From contig JAGTXX020000011.1 in NCBI GenBank assembly GCA_019044685.2, forward strand, positions 1,488,001 to 1,552,000: a stretch of 64,000 nt of DNA. The letters run 5' to 3'. Position numbers and translations under genes: made by a program. Shown in pieces: positions 23,812-54,864 of this stretch. The notes below the pieces were generated by a model. It was not told the origin of the DNA. It ran no database searches and saw only the letters and a program-made list of their open reading frames with translations. Each line of letters starts with the position of its first letter. Positions within the stretch are counted from its first letter, which is position 1. The stretch is from Nannochloris sp. 'desiccata'. Taxonomy: Eukaryota; Chlorophyta; Trebouxiophyceae; Chlorellales; Chlorellaceae.

Positions 23812-25599
23812 ATGCTCCGCTCACTTGCAGTCAGACCTTCTTTACAGGGTAAGTTACTAAATGGACGAGTTCTTAGTATCATTACTAAAAGCTTGAAACC
23901 AGGATTGGCATCTGAAAATTCTCCTTCTCAAACAACCTATTTTGAATTTCTGTCCAAATAAATTGCAGGCTTGCGTCCCTTTTCTAGGAATTCCCTGCCC
24001 AGCAGACGGACTATTTGTGTTAAAAGCATAATGGGCGGGTATCAGTACCAATCTCGCGCTTCTAAACTGCGTTCTCGTGGTGTGGATGTCTATGAGTTTG
24101 GAAATCGCAACTTGAGGGAGGGATGTTTTGGGGAAGACGTTCTCCAGCTCCAGAATTGGCTCGCTGATGAGACCTACTATAATCCTGTTGATGGTGGATA
24201 CACCGGCTACTTTGGATCGGTCACCAAGGAGGCGCTCCAGGCATGGCAGCGTGACAATGGCCTTGAGGCCACTGGGCACTTTGACTCCGTCAGCAAATCG
24301 GCTTACCTGCGTTCTCTTGAGATGCGCACTGCAGAACCTGCTCAGGTAGCATCTTCCTTTATCCAGGGTACCACAGTGGCTGTCCCTGCTCCTGTGGTCA
24401 GCACCACCACTGCTGCTGCTGGCAGCTCCGCTTCTGGCGCCCCTTTTTTTGCTGCCGCTGCGGTGCTTGCTGGCATTGCCTTTGCTCGTCTAGCTACCCC
24501 TGTACTTCGTCGTGTTCAGACTACTGTTATGAACGTCTTCACTTCAACGAAATTAGAGACCACGTCTGCTGAATACAGCACTTTTCCCCATGTTATCAAC
24601 GAGCACTATGACGAAGAAAGCGAACAAGTATACCAGAACGCCATCCAAGAAACAGACAGCCGTCCTTCCCGCTTACGTCGTCTCAGTGACGAAGAACTTC
24701 AGCGGTATATTGCTCCATTCAAAGGTGCTTCTATTACTGGCAGTGGCAAAAAATCATCAACCATCGCTGGCCGTCCAACTCCCCAACGTCCTGTCCCCCG
24801 TCGCTCACTCAATTTGAACACCCCTACCACAACTCCTACTGCTGCCAAAGACACTTCTCTCCCAACTCCCGTGACTTCTCGTCATGGTACTTACTACGGT
24901 GGACGTCAAGTCTTGGATCGAGTGAAAGAGTACTTGGCTGAAGAAGGCAGCATGCCTGCTGCCCCTGGTGCTGTTGGTCAGAGAATGCAGAAATTGGGAT
25001 ATAACATGCGTCCTAATGGTGGAGGCAATAACAGTACAGGTGGTAACTCTCGTACTACTCCTATTGATAATGGTCCTCGTACTATTGCTCAAGCTCAAAG
25101 GGAATACCAACAAGCTTCTAAAATTGTCAGCCCTTTACAAATGATGCATAACAACAACGGCAACACCAGCTCTTTTGAGGATATCCCCGAGGAAGAATTT
25201 GCTGGTGTGGCGACTGCTGTGGCGGTAGCGTCTCCTCGAGAGACTTCTAAAGCGTTGCTCACTGGAACTGAATTAGAAGCTGCCCCCGAGAGTCCTTTAC
25301 GCCCTGTACCTGTCAAGCGAGGATCCAACTCTATTAGAAAGGCCCCTGTTGCTGCAACAGCCTCCGCCACTACTTCTGTGAAGGCTGCTCGCAAGGCAGC
25401 CCCTCGGCCAGTTGCAGTAGTGAAGCCTTCTAGAGCCGGTGAGCAGGAGGAGGAGCGAGCCGCTGCAGCCCCTGCGGCTCAAGCGCCTGTAGACCCTAAC
25501 TCTGCTGTGGTTCTCACAAATAAGCCAGTAAAGCTCCACAAGCCTGCAAGGCTTGCAAGTAGAAGCATCGACTGCAGTAGCATGAGTGATGAGGAATAG
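23812..25599 (+). CDS. plastid-targeted protein with peptidoglycan-binding (PG_binding_1-type) domain
   Basis: A 555-residue protein. Exon 1 is 23812-23848 (MLRSLAVRPSLQ) and exon 2 is 23969-25599; intron 23849-23968. The first ~35 residues are basic and Ser-rich, like a transit peptide. A PG_binding_1-type helical domain follows at about residues 60-115 (CFGEDVLQLQNWLADETYY, GGYTGYFGSVTKEALQAWQRDNGL). One hydrophobic segment lies at about 165-190 (APFFAAAAVLAGIAFARLA). The remaining ~350 residues are low-complexity Ser/Thr/Pro/Ala/Arg sequence. Plants keep such domains in some plastid proteins, but the function here is unknown. Its 3' UTR may reach TGTAA at 25892-25896. Confidence 0.82.
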
Positions 25600-26903: not shown

Positions 26904-29272
26904 ATGGGTTTAAATGATCTTAAAAATCTCGATCTCAACACCTTGATAGGCTGCAAGCTCACAGCACAGGAAGCATTCGTCTTTCTGGCAGACCTGCAGA
27001 CTATGTTATCTGATGCTCTACCGCAAGACTTGTCCCAGGTAAATTATTTCCTTCTAAACAATTTGTCGTTCTAACGCTTCCAAATTTAGTATTCCTTTAA
27101 CAAAATCTTGCCAACCACGAATTGCAGCTGTGGCGTACAATAAGCAAGTATGTACTACGCCCAGACTATCCATTTGAACTACACCAGCTTCTGTTCAAAA
27201 CCACCTACCTCGGATGGAACACCGAGGCCAATGGTCCCGCTCCTGTGTGGATCCCCACTCAACAAGGCGCAGTCTCCACAAACGCAGGCAGATTTATGAA
27301 TACTCTTGAACTAAAAGCTCCTTCTGCATGGAACAGTCAACAATATAGGCCATCTGGGGACCCTAGAGCAGACTGGCCTTTGCTTTACCGCCTTTCCATC
27401 GACCACCCTGAAATGTTTTGGCCGCTGGTTTTAGAGGAATTTCGTTTTAAATTCCACACCCCTCCTAAAAAGATCTTGGAAAATTGTACAGATGATCCTG
27501 ACGCAGTACAATGGCTTCCAGGAGCGCGCTTCAACATCGCAGAATGTGCTCTAACGGGCCACGATCCAGACCGGCCAGCTATCCTCTGGGCTGCGGAAGA
27601 TTCACCTACTACAGTACATACCATTACTCGTGGTGAATTAGCACAGCAGGCGCAGCATTTCGCTAACTCACTCCACGCTTGGGATCTCAAACCAGGGGAT
27701 GCTGTTGGTTTAGACATGCCAATGGTCCCCCAAGCAGTGGCAGCTTACTTGGGAATTATCCTTGCTGGCTGCGTGGTGGTGTCAATTGCAGATAGTTTTG
27801 CTCCCAAGGAGATAGAATCTAGGCTACGTATAGCAAATGCAAAGGCTATAATAACGCATGATGTTGTTCTAAGAGGTGGGAAGGTGCTACCTTTATATGC
27901 TCGCGTTGTAGAAGCGGGAGCGCCGAGAGCTGTTGTCCTACCAGCTGGTGGCGGGGGTGGACACCAAGCACAAAATAAAATTCGTGGAGAGCTTCGTAGT
28001 GGCGATATATCCTGGGATACATTTTTATCTTTCGCTCCAGTACCAAATACACTCCATCCGTACATCTCTGCTGCTGATTCTAACAGCACTATTTCAAATA
28101 TTTTATTTAGCTCCGGAACCACTGGAGAACCCAAAGCCATTCCTTGGACACACGTCACCCCTCTTCGTTGCGCTACAGATGCTTTCTTCCATCAAGATGT
28201 ACGTGTAGAAGATGTTGTATGCTGGCCTAGTTCTATGGGATGGATGATGGGAGCCTGGCTTGTTATGAGTTGTTTATTAAACGGGGCAGCAATGGCGTTG
28301 TTTACCGGCAGCCCAGTGGACCGGCAATTTGGTCAATTCGTATCTTCCGCTCGTGTAGCAGTTCTAGGTCTCGTTCCTAGTATTGTAAGATCTTGGAAGG
28401 CGAGTGGATGTATGCGAGGCATCGACTTTAGCTGCATACGGTGCTTTTCCTCGACTGGAGAAGCCTCTGCTGCGGAAGAATATTTGTGGCTATCGTCTTT
28501 GGCTGGGTATTGTCCTGTTATCGAGTATTGCGGTGGCACTGAGATTGGTGGTGGGTTTTTAAGTGGAAGTATGGTACAGCCACAAGCACCTGCTACGTTT
28601 TCAACGCCTACTATTGGAACTAGGCCAGTTGTTTTAGTTCCAATTGAGAGTTCTGAGATTCGAAATGGCGGTGGTGGTGGCGGGAGTGGTGCAAGGGAGA
28701 TTCCTATTGAGCCAGCTACTGGGACCACCTCTGCCCTCGGAGAATTGGCTTTAATAATGCCACAGTTAGGTGTTTCTCAAAGCTTGCTGAATGCAGATCA
28801 TAGAAGGGTGTATTACGAAGGGATGCCAAGATCTATGTTGCGCCGTCATGGAGATGAGGTGGAGAAACTAAGTAATGGGTACTGTAAAGCACATGGTCGT
28901 GTAGATGATACAATGAATCTAGGAGGAATAAAAGTGAGCTCTGTAGAGCTTGAACGAGCTGTTGTTGAAGGAGTAGGAGAAGTAGCAGAGGCGGCCGCAG
29001 TGGCGGTGCCGCCGGCTGACGGGGGCCCTGACAAACTCGTTTTATTCTTAGTTTTAAAAAGCAGTGAAGGAGATGTTAGTCCAAGATTAACACGGGCTTG
29101 TCAGCACGCTATTTCCTCTCGTTTAAACCCTTTGTTTAAAGTTGGAGCGGTGCGCGTCATTTTGGCATTGCCACGAAACGCTTCTAATAAAGTAATGAGG
29201 CGTGTTTTGAGGGATGAATTGGCCTTGGGCAGTGAGAGTGATAAAGAGAAGATCTCAAAGAGTAGATTATAG
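26904..29272 (+). CDS. AAE18: peroxisomal acyl-activating enzyme, AAE17/AAE18-like
   Basis: A 759-residue member of the AMP-forming acyl-CoA synthetase superfamily, in the acetoacetyl/acetyl-CoA-synthetase-like branch of plant AAE17/18. Exon 1 is 26904-27038 and exon 2 is 27128-29272; the intron has donor GTAAAT and acceptor TTGCAG. The ATP/AMP signature ILFSSGTTGEPKAIPWTH is clear, as are YCGGTEIGGGF, the hinge region GRVDDTMNLGGIKVSSVELE, and a possible adenylation Lys in the NASNKVMRRVLRDEL block. The protein ends in SRL, a PTS1 peroxisomal signal, fitting AAE18, which can process peroxisomal auxin precursors. The exact substrate is unknown. The frame also reaches a GTG at 26880; the ATG at 26904 was used. 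TGTAA is at 29295-29299. Confidence 0.9.
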
Positions 29273-29576: not shown

Positions 29577-29580
29577 AAAA

Positions 29581-29707
29581 TACGAAGGATTCGCTCATAC
29601 CACTGAGCTACACCGGCTTGTGGTAGAGTTCATACATTTATTGATAACAAATAAACTTTACAACGATAGCCTGCCGGAGACGAGGGTCGAACTCGCGACC
29701 TAATCCT
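29581..29707 (-). tRNA. circularly permuted tRNA-Thr(CGT) gene
   Basis: On the minus strand the 3' half (29707 to 29672, tRNA positions 38-73) comes first, then a 54-nt intervening sequence (29671 to 29618), then the 5' half (29617 to 29581, positions 1-37). Joining 37 to 38 gives a 73-nt tRNA. The acceptor pairs GCCGGTG with CTCCGGC, with six of seven pairs formed and U6:U67 mismatched. The D stem is GCTC/GAGC with loop AGTGGTAT, and the anticodon stem AATCC/GGATT is perfect. The anticodon loop TTCGTAA has anticodon CGT, the variable loop is AGGTC, and the T stem GCGAG/CTCGT closes the loop TTCGACC. The discriminator is A73 and no CCA is encoded. The A box (TAGCTCAGTGG) and B-box-like GAGTTCGACCC are in reversed order. 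TTTT at 29577-29580 directly follows the 5' half and would end Pol III transcription. The junction is at the canonical 37/38 intron site. Confidence 0.88.
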
Positions 29708-30421
29708 ATTTCAATCGTAGGAAATTTCAATCCTGGCCTGGACAAGATGGTTCTACGTAATCAGAAGACTGAGTTATGGGGCGGGGCTGAAGCTGCTGCT
29801 ATCGATGTGCAGTTCCCTTCTTCTCCTTGTTTTCCATCCTCCTTTTCCCATTTTGATGCTGCTCTCTCCTTATCTATACATTTCTGGTCCATTGACGTTG
29901 TCTCGTTGACGGCGGCAGCTCACCGGTGAGGTGGGTCGGGCTATATGTAAAAATCTCAGCTCAGCTCAGCTGCCGTCGATGATCATGGGGGCACTGCACT
30001 GTGGCTTTGCCCATCGGACGCACTCTCATTCGTCCAAAACATCCATGTAATATTTTATAGCCAGTAAGTTCGATAGATATAGATATGCCTCATCTGCTCT
30101 CCATGTTGCCTCTATTCCAGCCGCTTCTTCGGCCGAGTCTTTAGGGTTTTAGGGTTCTCTTTCAGGCGCTCTTTCTCGCTAAGTTTCTGGTCCTATTCAC
30201 AGACCCTCCATATCGTTACAAGGACTATTTTACAGCAGATCTAGCCTCTGCATTTCTTGTCAGATTTGTGGATCAATGAGTCGAGGGTCATTTTCACTTT
30301 TAGAATCTTGTTCAAGATCAGATTGTTGACCGTCGTTTCTATCTTTTAACTCTTATTGAATTCCCCCTTTAATTATTATTCTTATAGTTCAATCAACCCT
30401 AATACATCCTATCCTACAAAA
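29708..30421. other. tRNA leader and DNAL1 promoter / 5' leader
   Basis: This 714-bp region upstream of the DNAL1 ATG also holds the leader of the permuted tRNA (minus strand). Apart from the telo-box-like motif at 30140-30156 I see no gene. Confidence 0.4.
30140..30156 (+). promoter_or_regulatory. telo-box-like motif TTTAGGGTTTTAGGG
   Basis: Two TTTAGGG units in a row, the plant-type telomere unit and the core of the promoter telo-box, lie about 270 bp upstream of the DNAL1 start. Only two units are present, so this is a short motif and not an interstitial telomere. Confidence 0.4.
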
Positions 30422-31021
30422 ATGGCTGCAGCTGCGTCTATTCGCCAAGCTCTCGAACGACATTGTGCCACATCTGGTGTCACATTCGATCAGCTGCACA
30501 CTCTAGAAAAAGTATCCCTGGCAGCATGCTGCCCTCCTTTAGATAAACTAGACCCAAATTTTGGTCAGACTGTGGGACCTCAGTGCAAGCTGCTCTCCCT
30601 CTCAACTAACAACATTGACCGCTTGGCCGGGACGTCTCTCACAGGGCTTGACAAACTTGAAATATTATCGGTGGGGAGAAACTGTTTAAAGCGTTTAGAT
30701 GGATTAGAAGCAGTGAGCAACACTTTACAGGAATTATGGGCCAGTTATAATGCATTGGAGAAGCTCGCAGGAGTAGAGCGGTGTTCTCACCTCCGTGTGC
30801 TTTATGCCTCTAACAACAAAATCAAAGACTGGGCAGAGGTGGAAAGGTTGGCAGGTTTAGAGCAATTAGAAGACTTGTTACTAAGTGGGAATCCTCTTTG
30901 CGGCGGTGATGAAGCTGGGTATAGAGCAGGAGTGTTGCGACGGTTGCCGCAACTGAATAAACTCGACGGGCGATTGGTTTCAGAAGAAGAACGCGTTCTG
31001 GCAGCTGCTGGTAGTAAATAA
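30422..31021 (+). CDS. DNAL1: outer-arm dynein light chain 1 (LC1/DNAL1)
   Basis: A 199-residue leucine-rich-repeat protein that tethers the motor domain of an outer-arm axonemal dynein heavy chain to the doublet microtubule. Repeat motifs run in the family's order: KLLSLSTNNIDRL, LEILSVGRNCLKRLDGLEAV, LQELWASYNALEKLAGV, HLRVLYASNNKIKDWAEV, LEDLLLSGNPLCG, then RLPQLNKLDGRLVS. The length equals that of known LC1 proteins (about 190-200). The frame extends to a TTG at 30356; the ATG at 30422 (MAAAASIRQALERHC) was chosen. Its presence indicates motile flagella in some stage. Confidence 0.95.
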   Translation: MAAAASIRQALERHCATSGVTFDQLHTLEKVSLAACCPPLDKLDPNFGQTVGPQCKLLSLSTNNIDRLAGTSLTGLDKLEILSVGRNCLKRLDGLEAVSNTLQELWASYNALEKLAGVERCSHLRVLYASNNKIKDWAEVERLAGLEQLEDLLLSGNPLCGGDEAGYRAGVLRRLPQLNKLDGRLVSEEERVLAAAGSK

Positions 31022-52641: not shown

Positions 52642-54864
52642 ATGGATCCAGGAATGATGAAATTTGCATCAGAAATGATGAACAAAATGAGTCCAGAGCA
52701 GGTATGCGATCACCATATATCTCAAGCTCCGAGACTCGCGGCTGTCTTACCTGTTCGAACATTCATTATGATCACCGCCCAACCATCACGTCTCATATAT
52801 TTTTCTTACCCTTTTTTTCTTCTCCCTTTTACTATTCAGATGGCAGCTATGCAGCGACAAGCAGCTTCTATGGATCCTGCACAAATGCAGCAAGCAATGA
52901 ACATGTATCAAGGCATGTCCCCTGAACAACGCAGAGCAATGCAACAAACCGCCTCATCAATGGACCCAGAAACCTTGGTGCAACAAGCTGGAACAGCACA
53001 ATCTCAACTTTCTGCACAACAAAAATACCAGTACGACGGCTCTAATCAACTAAAACTTGAAGGAAATCGTCTGCACGGGCTTCAAAAATACAAAGAAGCA
53101 GCAGATAAATATAAAAGAGCTACGGAAAATTTATCAACACACACCGCTAGTCAATCAATAACCCTTCGCACCAGTTGCCATAGCAATTTAGCGAGTTGTT
53201 ATTTACAATTGAAGAAATGGAATGAGTGTGTGGCTGAATGCAATGCTGTGTTAACCGCTGATAACTCGAATAGAAAAGCTTTTTATAGAAGAGGGCAAGC
53301 ATATGTTGCTCTCGGGAAACCTGACCAAGCAGTAATTGATCTTCAAAAAGCTTTAGAGCTGTCGCCAGACTCTGAAAAGGGTGTTATTAGAGAGAAATTG
53401 CAAGAAGCTGAAGAGAAACAAAAGCATGCAGCACGAGGTGTTGTCATTCAAGAAATAAATGATCATGAAGAGGAAGAAAGTAGAAAGAAAGAAAATGGTG
53501 GTGGGATAGAAGACAATCATGAAGATGGACATGCTTCAGATAGCGCAATGCCTGCATTAAAAACTCCAGCCCCTTTCTCGGCAGCACCTGTCACAACCAG
53601 TGATAGGACTGCTGCCCCTGCCCCTGCCCCCGCCCCTCCACAAGAGCAAGTTGCCATGGCTGCTGAGATGATGCGTAATGACCCTGACATGGTCCGTAAA
53701 GCAGCTGAAATGATGGCAAATATGTCTGATGCTGAAATAGCTGCTAATATGGCGATGGCTGGTGGCGGTATGCCAGGTGCAACACCAGAGATGGCTAGAG
53801 CTGCGGCGGCAATGATGAAGAATATGTCGACAGATGAGATAAAGTACGTAGTGATTAAATTAGCCAGTTAGTTAGTTAGTTACTAGTCGATTAGAGTAGA
53901 TAAGAAGTAGATTATATACTCATTAAGACTTTAATTCATAAGTATGTGTCTGTATTGTGATAATTTATTAAACTCTTCTTTTGTTGTACTTCTGTTGTAC
54001 AGGACCATGGCGCAGAAGGCATCAGCATCTGGTTCTGGCAGTATCCCGACGACTACCTCCACCGGAGGCGCTCTTCCGTCTTACCCAGGAATGAATATGC
54101 CTGGTGCGATGCCTCAAGATTCTATTGCAGCCACAGCTGCAGCTACTGAATATATGAAGCAAGATCCTAGTATGCTTAAAAACGCAGCAAAAATGATGCA
54201 AGATATGGCACCAGAGCAACTTGAAGCGATGGCCGCATCGATGCCGGGTGGTGGTGCTGGGATGAAAATCGATCATGAACAGATGAAAATGGCGGCGAAA
54301 ATGATGGAATCGATGTCGCCTGAAGATTTTGAAAGGATGACAAGGATGGCACAGAGCATGGGGGGGGGGGGAGGTCCTTTGCCCGCCTCAACGGCCATAC
54401 CATCAGCATCAGCATGTACTGCTGCACCAGGAGTCGGTGCACCCATAACTCCGAACACTGCTACAGGAACTAATACTGCCTCTATTCCTGGAGCTGCCCC
54501 GCGATTTGACCCAGGTACAATTTCCCCAGACATGATGACTAATATGAGAAAACAAATGAATGACCCTGCTATGCTACGCAGCATGCAAAGCATGCTGAAA
54601 GGAATGGATCCACAAACTTTGGCATCTATGATGAAAGCGAGTGGGATGGATATGAGTCCGGAGCAGGCACAAAAGATGGTCGATTCATTAGGGAATGTCT
54701 CTGATAAGCAACTAGAGTGGATTGCAAAATTGTCGGGAATTGTGAATCTCATTATCGATACCTATCAAAGAATGAAAGCTTGGGCATTGTCAAATGGGGC
54801 AATGAGTGTGGCGTTGATTTTGTTGCTTGTGTTTCTTATCTTTAGGTGGTTGGGGTGGCTTTGA
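52642..54864 (+). CDS. OEP61: OEP61/TPR7-like Hsp70 co-chaperone receptor, tail-anchored
   Basis: A 641-residue protein. Exons are 52642-52701, 52840-53843 and 54003-54864. The open frame runs on through intron 1 and into intron 2, but splicing restores family sequence (MNKMSPEQ joined to MAAMQRQAASMDPAQMQQ). The N-terminus has Met-rich STI1-like motifs. A three-TPR clamp follows at about residues 80-210 (YQYDGSNQLKLEGNRLHGLQKYKEAADKYKRATENL, CHSNLASCYLQLKKW, RKAFYRRGQAYVALGKPDQAV). Then come repeated MM-x-x-M-(S/T)-x-(D/E) blocks, MRKQMNDPAMLRSMQSMLKGM, and a single C-terminal membrane helix. This is the layout of plant OEP61/TPR7, which receives Hsp70-bound preproteins at the plastid outer envelope or ER. 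A run of 12 G lies at 54360-54371 in exon 3. TGTAA is at 54967-54971. Confidence 0.9.

Follow-up and report, generated by a model that had tools for sequence, protein, structure and literature searches.

Two pieces of tRNA-like sequence lie close together in the window (the whole 64,000-nucleotide stretch of DNA that was analysed), both on its minus strand, and their order raises the question of whether they constitute one working gene that is read back to front. Along the minus strand the order is leader, tRNA positions 38-73, linker, positions 1-37 and TTTT, so that the 3' half lies upstream of the 5' half on the same strand. The 3' half (29672..29707, 36 nt) comprises A38, GGATT, AGGTC, the T arm, the 3' acceptor strand and A73; the linker (29618..29671, 54 nt) possesses no TTTT, its longest T run being three; and the 5' half (29581..29617, 37 nt) carries the anticodon CGT at 29584-29582. 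A TTTT resembling an RNA polymerase III terminator stands directly 3' of position 37 (29577..29580), and its last two bases are also part of an outer junction helix. The original prediction had placed the halves at 29707-29672 and 29617-29581 of the minus strand, 54 nt apart and 73 nt long when joined, with a TTTT stop directly after the 5' half; re-derivation gave the same positions, and the stop was found at 29580-29577. The neighbouring genes are an acyl/acetyl-CoA synthetase-like open reading frame (ORF) at 27122-29272 and a leucine-rich-repeat ORF at 30356-31021, both on the plus strand.

When joined, the two halves form a complete 73-nt cloverleaf with the anticodon CGT. The anticodon stem AATCC/GGATT has all five pairs, the D stem has four, the T stem has five with the loop TTCGACC, the variable loop is AGGTC, and the acceptor stem has six of its seven pairs, T6-T67 being a mismatch; the stems, the T loop, the 5-nt variable loop and the six acceptor pairs that had been claimed were thus all re-found in the joined 73-mer. 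The conserved bases T8, A14, G18G19, T33 and TTC at 54-56 are present, CCA is not encoded (A73 is followed by GGC), and the pairs G1-C72 and C2-G71 are taken here to agree with threonine identity. The 37/38 junction is flanked by a bulge-helix-bulge-like motif, in which leader bases -3 to -6 (29710..29713) pair at four of four positions, one of them G-T, with tRNA positions 32-35 (29586-29583) to form the central helix, and leader bases -8 to -11 (29715..29718) pair with trailer bases +3 to +6 (29578-29575) to form the outer helix, which has four of five pairs over leader -7 to -11. An ordinary or intron-containing tRNA gene would present its 5' half first, which is not the order of this locus. 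The locus is very likely a functional nuclear tRNA-Thr(CGT) gene in type II circularly permuted form, and at least 28 genes of this form are present in the green-algal genome.

In genomic order, the window yielded no tRNA genes with ARAGORN and no tRNA matches with Rfam. ARAGORN, which was not trained on this gene, reported tRNA-Thr(cgt) from the joined halves. A covariance model of permuted order was built from seven training sequences, namely the Thr(CGT) gene of the window and six tRNAs of ordinary order from this genome that were rearranged in silico; a search of this kind had been proposed with the original prediction, and it gave Thr(CGT), a member of its own training set, 59.3 bits. Second best within the window was 54546-54624, at 14.3 bits, a match with several unpaired columns that was taken as due to chance. 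Because Thr(CGT) was in the training set of the covariance model, a rule-based scanner independent of that model was also used, and it scored the gene at 23.6. Applied to 150 random sequences of 64 kb with matching dinucleotide composition, the scanner returned 23 hits at 18 or more, one at 20.5 or more and none above 20.5. The folding energies of joined tRNAs were only modestly below those of shuffled sequences (z = -1.9 for Thr and +0.2 for Ala(CGC)). With a 221-base query taken from the locus, the genome search returned the locus alone, and the Rfam matches (63 of 825 candidates scored) included no ordinary tRNA-Thr(CGT), for which a search had likewise been suggested.

The assembly that holds the window comprises 21,550,525 bases in 18 contigs, and the GC content of the window is 42-51% per 2 kb. 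Adenylate kinase encoded in the window exhibits 86% identity to Micractinium and Chlorella proteins, 79-82% to Coccomyxa and at most 82% to volvocalean algae, and the host is probably a trebouxiophyte green alga, as judged from these sequences. A Choricystis host was rejected, as that genome is reported to have about 70% GC and 14.6 Mb (PMC12141999). A 542-residue ORF at 23971-25599 possesses a peptidoglycan-binding domain (PF01471, E = 1.5e-12) in this green-algal nuclear genome.

A search of the whole genome with the Rfam tRNA family RF00005, in which 63 of 825 candidates were scored, gave nine matches at E <= 0.001 and 16 at E <= 10. Ten genes exceeded the cut-off, eight of them of nuclear type, namely Val(TAC), Gln(CTG), Met(CAT), His(GTG), Pro(TGG), Ser(TGA), Asp(GTC) and Ser(CGA), and two of them identical, organelle-like Ser(GCT) genes. 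Introns at 37/38 are present in His(GTG), Pro(TGG), Ser(TGA), Asp(GTC) and Ser(CGA), and the ordinary Met(CAT) is presumably initiator-like, given its features. One further gene of ordinary order, Pro(AGG), with a 49-nt intron, was found by pattern search (L134). The ordinary tRNA genes found are far too few for a eukaryote. The six RF00005 matches below the cut-off (L012-L017) are permuted tRNA genes by the covariance model, at 49.3 to 63.8 bits.

The two organelle-like Ser(GCT) genes (G000:C6:2472079-2472164, L005; G000:C13:296400-296485, L006) are intron-free, the former has no T run in the 14 nt downstream, and both are probably organelle DNA inserted in the nucleus. On each of the two contigs, an organelle-like Ser(GCT) and a permuted Gly(GCC) lie approximately 77 kb apart, and the two arrangements are in opposite orientation (C6 near 2,472,000-2,549,000, L005 and L127; C13 near 219,000-296,000, L006 and L150). 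This repeat is either a segmental duplication or a stretch that was assembled twice.

Across the genome, 28 distinct permuted genes for 15 amino acids were found, each of them type II, with the junction at 37/38. They comprise Ala (TGC, AGC and CGC), Arg (TCG, CCG, TCT, ACG and CCT), Asn(GTT), Cys(GCA), Gly (TCC and GCC), Ile(TAT), Leu (CAA, AAG, TAA and CAG), Lys(CTT), Met(CAT), Phe(GAA), Ser (GCT and AGA), Thr (CGT and TGT), Trp(CCA), Tyr(GTA) and Val (CAC and AAC). Ordinary order is represented by nine nuclear-type genes and one that depends on reading an insert as an intron (Pro(CGG)), and permuted genes therefore make up 28 of the 38 nuclear-type tRNA genes found in this incomplete census. 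Among nuclear-type genes, CAT is the only anticodon found in both forms, with an initiator-like ordinary gene and an elongator-like permuted gene; the permuted Ser(GCT) is of nuclear type and is present besides the organelle-like copies. All 27 loci to which the covariance model was applied (all but Val(AAC)) were matched, at 22.5 to 68.6 bits, and the 27 genes scored by the scanner, with Leu(CAG) left out, reached 21.2 to 25.5. The original prediction had called the locus a rare gene form, which does not hold for the host genome, where most of the tRNA genes found are in permuted order; its reading of the locus as a circularly permuted tRNA-Thr(CGT) gene fits the structure, the junction pairing, the terminator and the 27 further genes of the same build.

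The census was drawn from T-arm patterns (58, 40, 39 and 10 places, all read or already known) and from part of the B-box and D-arm places, and the T-arm search was restricted to the letters of the patterns used. The B-box pattern KGTTCGANNCM gave 277 places, among the 100 listed of which 28 were new and compatible with a 52-62 pair, and the six of these that were read contained no tRNA. The first D-arm patterns gave 15 matches, five of them known, and reading six of the other ten added one gene, Val(AAC); further D-arm patterns gave 47 matches, six of them known, and the six read of the other 41 contained no tRNA. A BLAST search of the concatenated 5' halves against the genome gave no matches and is uninformative on gene presence. 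Seven expected tRNA species or families did not turn up, namely Glu, Gln(TTG), Lys(TTT), Ile(AAT), Leu(TAG), Thr(AGT) and Gly(CCC), and the census is therefore incomplete. The bias of the search runs against the permuted class, since the Rfam search finds ordinary genes best; ordinary genes with long inserts may also have been missed.

Two candidates were dropped, namely a canonical-order Cys look-alike (L080, scanner 18.8), removed before counting as weak, and L032 (scanner 18.2), which by eye is a decayed organelle-type tRNA. Also left out of the 28 were the organelle-like Ser(GCT) pair, the second identical copies of Gly(GCC), which is present on both C6 and C13, and of Trp(CCA), and a Trp variant. 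Permuted Trp(CCA) exists in three copies (L086, L087 and L088; G000:C8 near 321685, 551564 and 552570), of which two are identical and the other is altered by a 2-nt insertion in its 3' half (L087, 2493-2619). Leu(CAG) was assembled by hand, replacing a wrong first reading of its locus (scanner 18.0). Permuted Cys(GCA) (G000:C2:219252, L017) possesses two candidates for the 3' strand of the anticodon stem, TCAAC with five pairs and TCTAC with four, at a distance of 7 nt, and the doubled strand is perhaps the remnant of a rearrangement. The variable loop of this gene was shortened by hand from 12 to 5 nt; with this change the gene went from one junction pair to three and has four of five pairs in its anticodon stem.

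The permuted genes exhibit a shared signature. ARAGORN called the right tRNA with the right anticodon from all 28 joins of a gene's own halves (Leu(CAG) without its insert) and none from the 28 genes in genomic order, and it made 107 calls of a tRNA of any kind over 756 mismatched joins. Over the acceptor and anticodon stems, own halves form 12 of 12 pairs in 23 genes and 11 of 12 in five, compared with a mean of 5.9 of 12 for foreign halves, of which three combinations in 756 reach 11; no other half surpasses the neighbouring one as a partner in any of the 28 genes. A run of four or more T within 30 nt after position 37 follows all 28 genes (within 7 nt in 24 of them), compared with 15% of 20,000 random places in the window, and none of the 28 linkers, which are 5-73 nt long, contains TTTT.

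The junction helix (positions 32-35 against leader -3 to -6) has four pairs in six genes, three in nine, two in 12 and one in one. Its mean is 2.71 of four in the predicted register, compared with 0.96 to 1.79 in 14 other registers. When leaders were shuffled among the genes the mean was 2.02 (sd 0.13), and none of 100,000 shuffles reached 2.71; before the change to Cys(GCA) the mean was 2.64, which none of 20,000 shuffles reached. Given that shuffled leaders already reach 2.02, the register effect is due partly to shared base composition and is partly gene-specific. Only 15 of the 28 genes have three or four pairs, and so the motif is relaxed for many of them.

Inserts with GT-AG ends were found in two tRNA genes of this genome. 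Permuted Leu(CAG) (G000:C11:1726660-1727270, L056), which lies on the contig of the window and outside the window itself, has an 89-nt insert in the D loop of its 5' half, reading GTAAGC...GCTAACA...TTTCAG; between its GT and AG ends the insert possesses a pyrimidine tract and a CTAAC-like branch site. Without the insert, the 5' half has its first 19 bases and GGCGGTAG in common with Leu(AAG), and ARAGORN reports Leu(cag). The ends of the insert are not fixed by the tRNA structure: 33 cuts score near the top, one of which is GT..AG, and in approximately 0.9% of 5000 trials a random insert offers GTAAG, GTGAG, GTACG or GTATG, combined with CAG or TAG, at ends that are permitted. Some of the other near-top cuts possess a fuller endonuclease-type motif, and it is possible that the insert is an ectopic intron of the endonuclease type.

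The second gene, Pro(CGG), is of ordinary order (L027; T arm G000:C5:482934-482944) and has a 93-nt insert, GTACGT...TTGCAG, between positions 31 and 32, as well as a 29-nt intron at 37/38. ARAGORN reports Pro(cgg) without the inserts. The uncut sequence reads as a tRNA with anticodon ACG and a long 37/38 intron, at a score equal to that of the cut reading, and the D loop lacks G18G19; for these two reasons Pro(CGG) may be decaying. The 93-nt insert contains TTTT. The adenylate kinase intron, GTGAGT...CTGAC...CTGCAG, which is the only intron in the window placed by homologous proteins, is similar by eye, and a search of the window for the GT-AG intron motif gave 26 hits in the true sequence against 33 in the reversed sequence and so no separation. 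No report of GT-AG-type introns in tRNA genes was found among the listings of the open-access literature searched. A bolder reading, which we put forward tentatively and rate somewhat below an even chance, is that permuted order is the default for nuclear tRNA genes in this alga, with 28 of the 38 found being permuted and most translation running through circular pre-tRNAs, and that Leu(CAG) and the ordinary Pro(CGG) are in addition broken by spliceosomal GT-AG introns, such that the spliceosome, the tRNA endonuclease, a ligase and acceptor-end processing would all be needed for a single pre-tRNA. If the inserts are spliceosomal introns, the spliceosome would take part in the making of tRNA.

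Other explanations of the Thr(CGT) locus were weighed against a functional permuted gene. The one that carries the most weight, improbable as it is, holds that the locus is a relic, composed of tRNA pieces that resemble a permuted gene and are neither transcribed nor processed. The T6-T67 acceptor mismatch counts against a functional reading, and altered copies of permuted genes do exist in the genome, such as the Trp copy with the 2-nt insertion (L087). A relic is, however, hard to reconcile with a locus that keeps its junction pairing, its T run and all its arms, for which no ordinary copy with a CGT anticodon was found as a replacement (63 of 825 candidates scored), and whose signature is common to 28 genes for 15 amino acids. 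The tRNA-Thr(TGT) might read ACG by wobble. Given that a permuted Thr(TGT) gene is also present in the genome and may read this codon, Thr(CGT) need not be essential. On the side of a functional gene, ACG accounts for 93 of 12,759 codons in 23 long, mechanically derived ORFs of the window.

Far less probable still is a split tRNA, in which the halves come from separate, separately transcribed loci and are joined in trans with halves from elsewhere rather than in a circle in cis. Trans-spliced split tRNAs are known from archaea according to a 2014 review (PMC3978253), and the halves are indeed separate on the genome; they are, however, 54 nt apart at this locus with no TTTT between them, the short and TTTT-free linkers of the permuted genes imply that one transcript should carry both halves, and the neighbouring half is in no case surpassed as a partner. 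Chance resemblance or an assembly artefact is equally remote. Weak look-alikes exist, as the single random hit at 20.5 in 150 random windows illustrates, whereas Thr(CGT) scores 23.6 with the scanner and 59.3 bits with the covariance model, and all 27 scanner-scored genes lie above that random hit. Some stretches of the assembly are represented twice (C6 and C13), but the same rearrangement with intact pairing in 28 genes on many contigs is not expected from a fault of assembly.

If Thr(CGT) is a functional permuted gene, RNA polymerase III would produce one linear RNA, running from the leader through the 3' half, the linker and the 5' half to the trailer, and would stop at the T run; a bulge-helix-bulge would form around the anticodon loop by pairing of leader with trailer. 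Cleavage by the Sen2/Sen34 endonuclease after position 37 and before position 38 would then release leader and trailer, and tRNA ligase would join 37 to 38 into a circle, from which RNase P and tRNase Z would remove the linker at the acceptor stem before CCA is added. This pathway for permuted tRNAs was worked out in red and green algae by RT-PCR and sequencing, as reviewed in PMC3978253. Thr(CGT) has the sequence features that the pathway calls for, and for this gene itself we infer transcription, cutting, the circle and the mature tRNA by analogy. Two places in the genome possess the endonuclease domain PF01974, their best solved relatives being Sen2 and Sen34, and genes for Sen2-like and Sen34-like subunits are thus present.

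The 2014 review counts 34 permuted tRNA genes from six algae and one archaeon, with at most 11 per species, and describes type II as prevailing among the permuted genes of green algae (PMC3978253). The closest single counterpart in its Table 1 is a type II permuted tRNA-Thr(CGT) of Cyanidioschyzon merolae with a 31-bp linker, which is alike in half order, junction, anticodon, terminator-free linker, T run after the 5' half and splicing-endonuclease motif. C. merolae differs in being a red alga in which 11 of 43 genes are permuted, with four types of junction, whereas the present genome is green and its permuted genes, at least 28, are all type II. Prasinophytes (Ostreococcus and Micromonas) and the Bigelowiella nucleomorph are described as belonging to the green lineage, with nearly all of their permuted genes type II and with a relaxed junction motif (PMC3978253, PMC4494063), but they have two to six such genes per genome, many of them for Ser, compared with 28 for 15 amino acids here; a second nucleomorph is reported to have two permuted Ser genes (PMC4494063).

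The original prediction had listed Cyanidioschyzon, prasinophytes and a chlorarachniophyte nucleomorph as the known carriers, a list that is too short in that it omits two lineages. One is the trebouxiophyte Auxenochlorella UTEX 250-A, in which, according to PMC12636532, permuted genes were likewise found after an incomplete tRNAscan-SE set; its genome may be as rich in permuted genes, the count being given in a supplementary figure of that paper. The other is the archaeon Thermofilum pendens, which in the account of PMC3978253 shares the reversed half order and an endonuclease motif at the junction, and differs in its 59/60 junction, its linkers of 1 and 7 nt and its encoded CCA. No report of a genome with a permuted majority was found in the open-access literature, as judged by titles and the openings of abstracts, and on sequence evidence the present genome appears to be the richest source of permuted tRNA genes that we found described there. 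Each of its permuted genes is of a known kind, but 28 of them in one genome compare with the 34 from seven species that the review records (PMC3978253).

For annotation, the genome is a warning, given that the Rfam tRNA search, with 63 of 825 candidates scored, placed eight of the 38 nuclear-type genes above its cut-off. With permuted genes outnumbering ordinary ones in a single genome, it can be used to test whether tandem duplication of intron-bearing genes gave rise to permuted ones, how far a junction can be relaxed and still be accepted by the endonuclease, given that 15 of the 28 have three or four central pairs, and why type II dominates in green algae. The genome is therefore an unusually rich one for studying the origin and processing of back-to-front tRNA genes.
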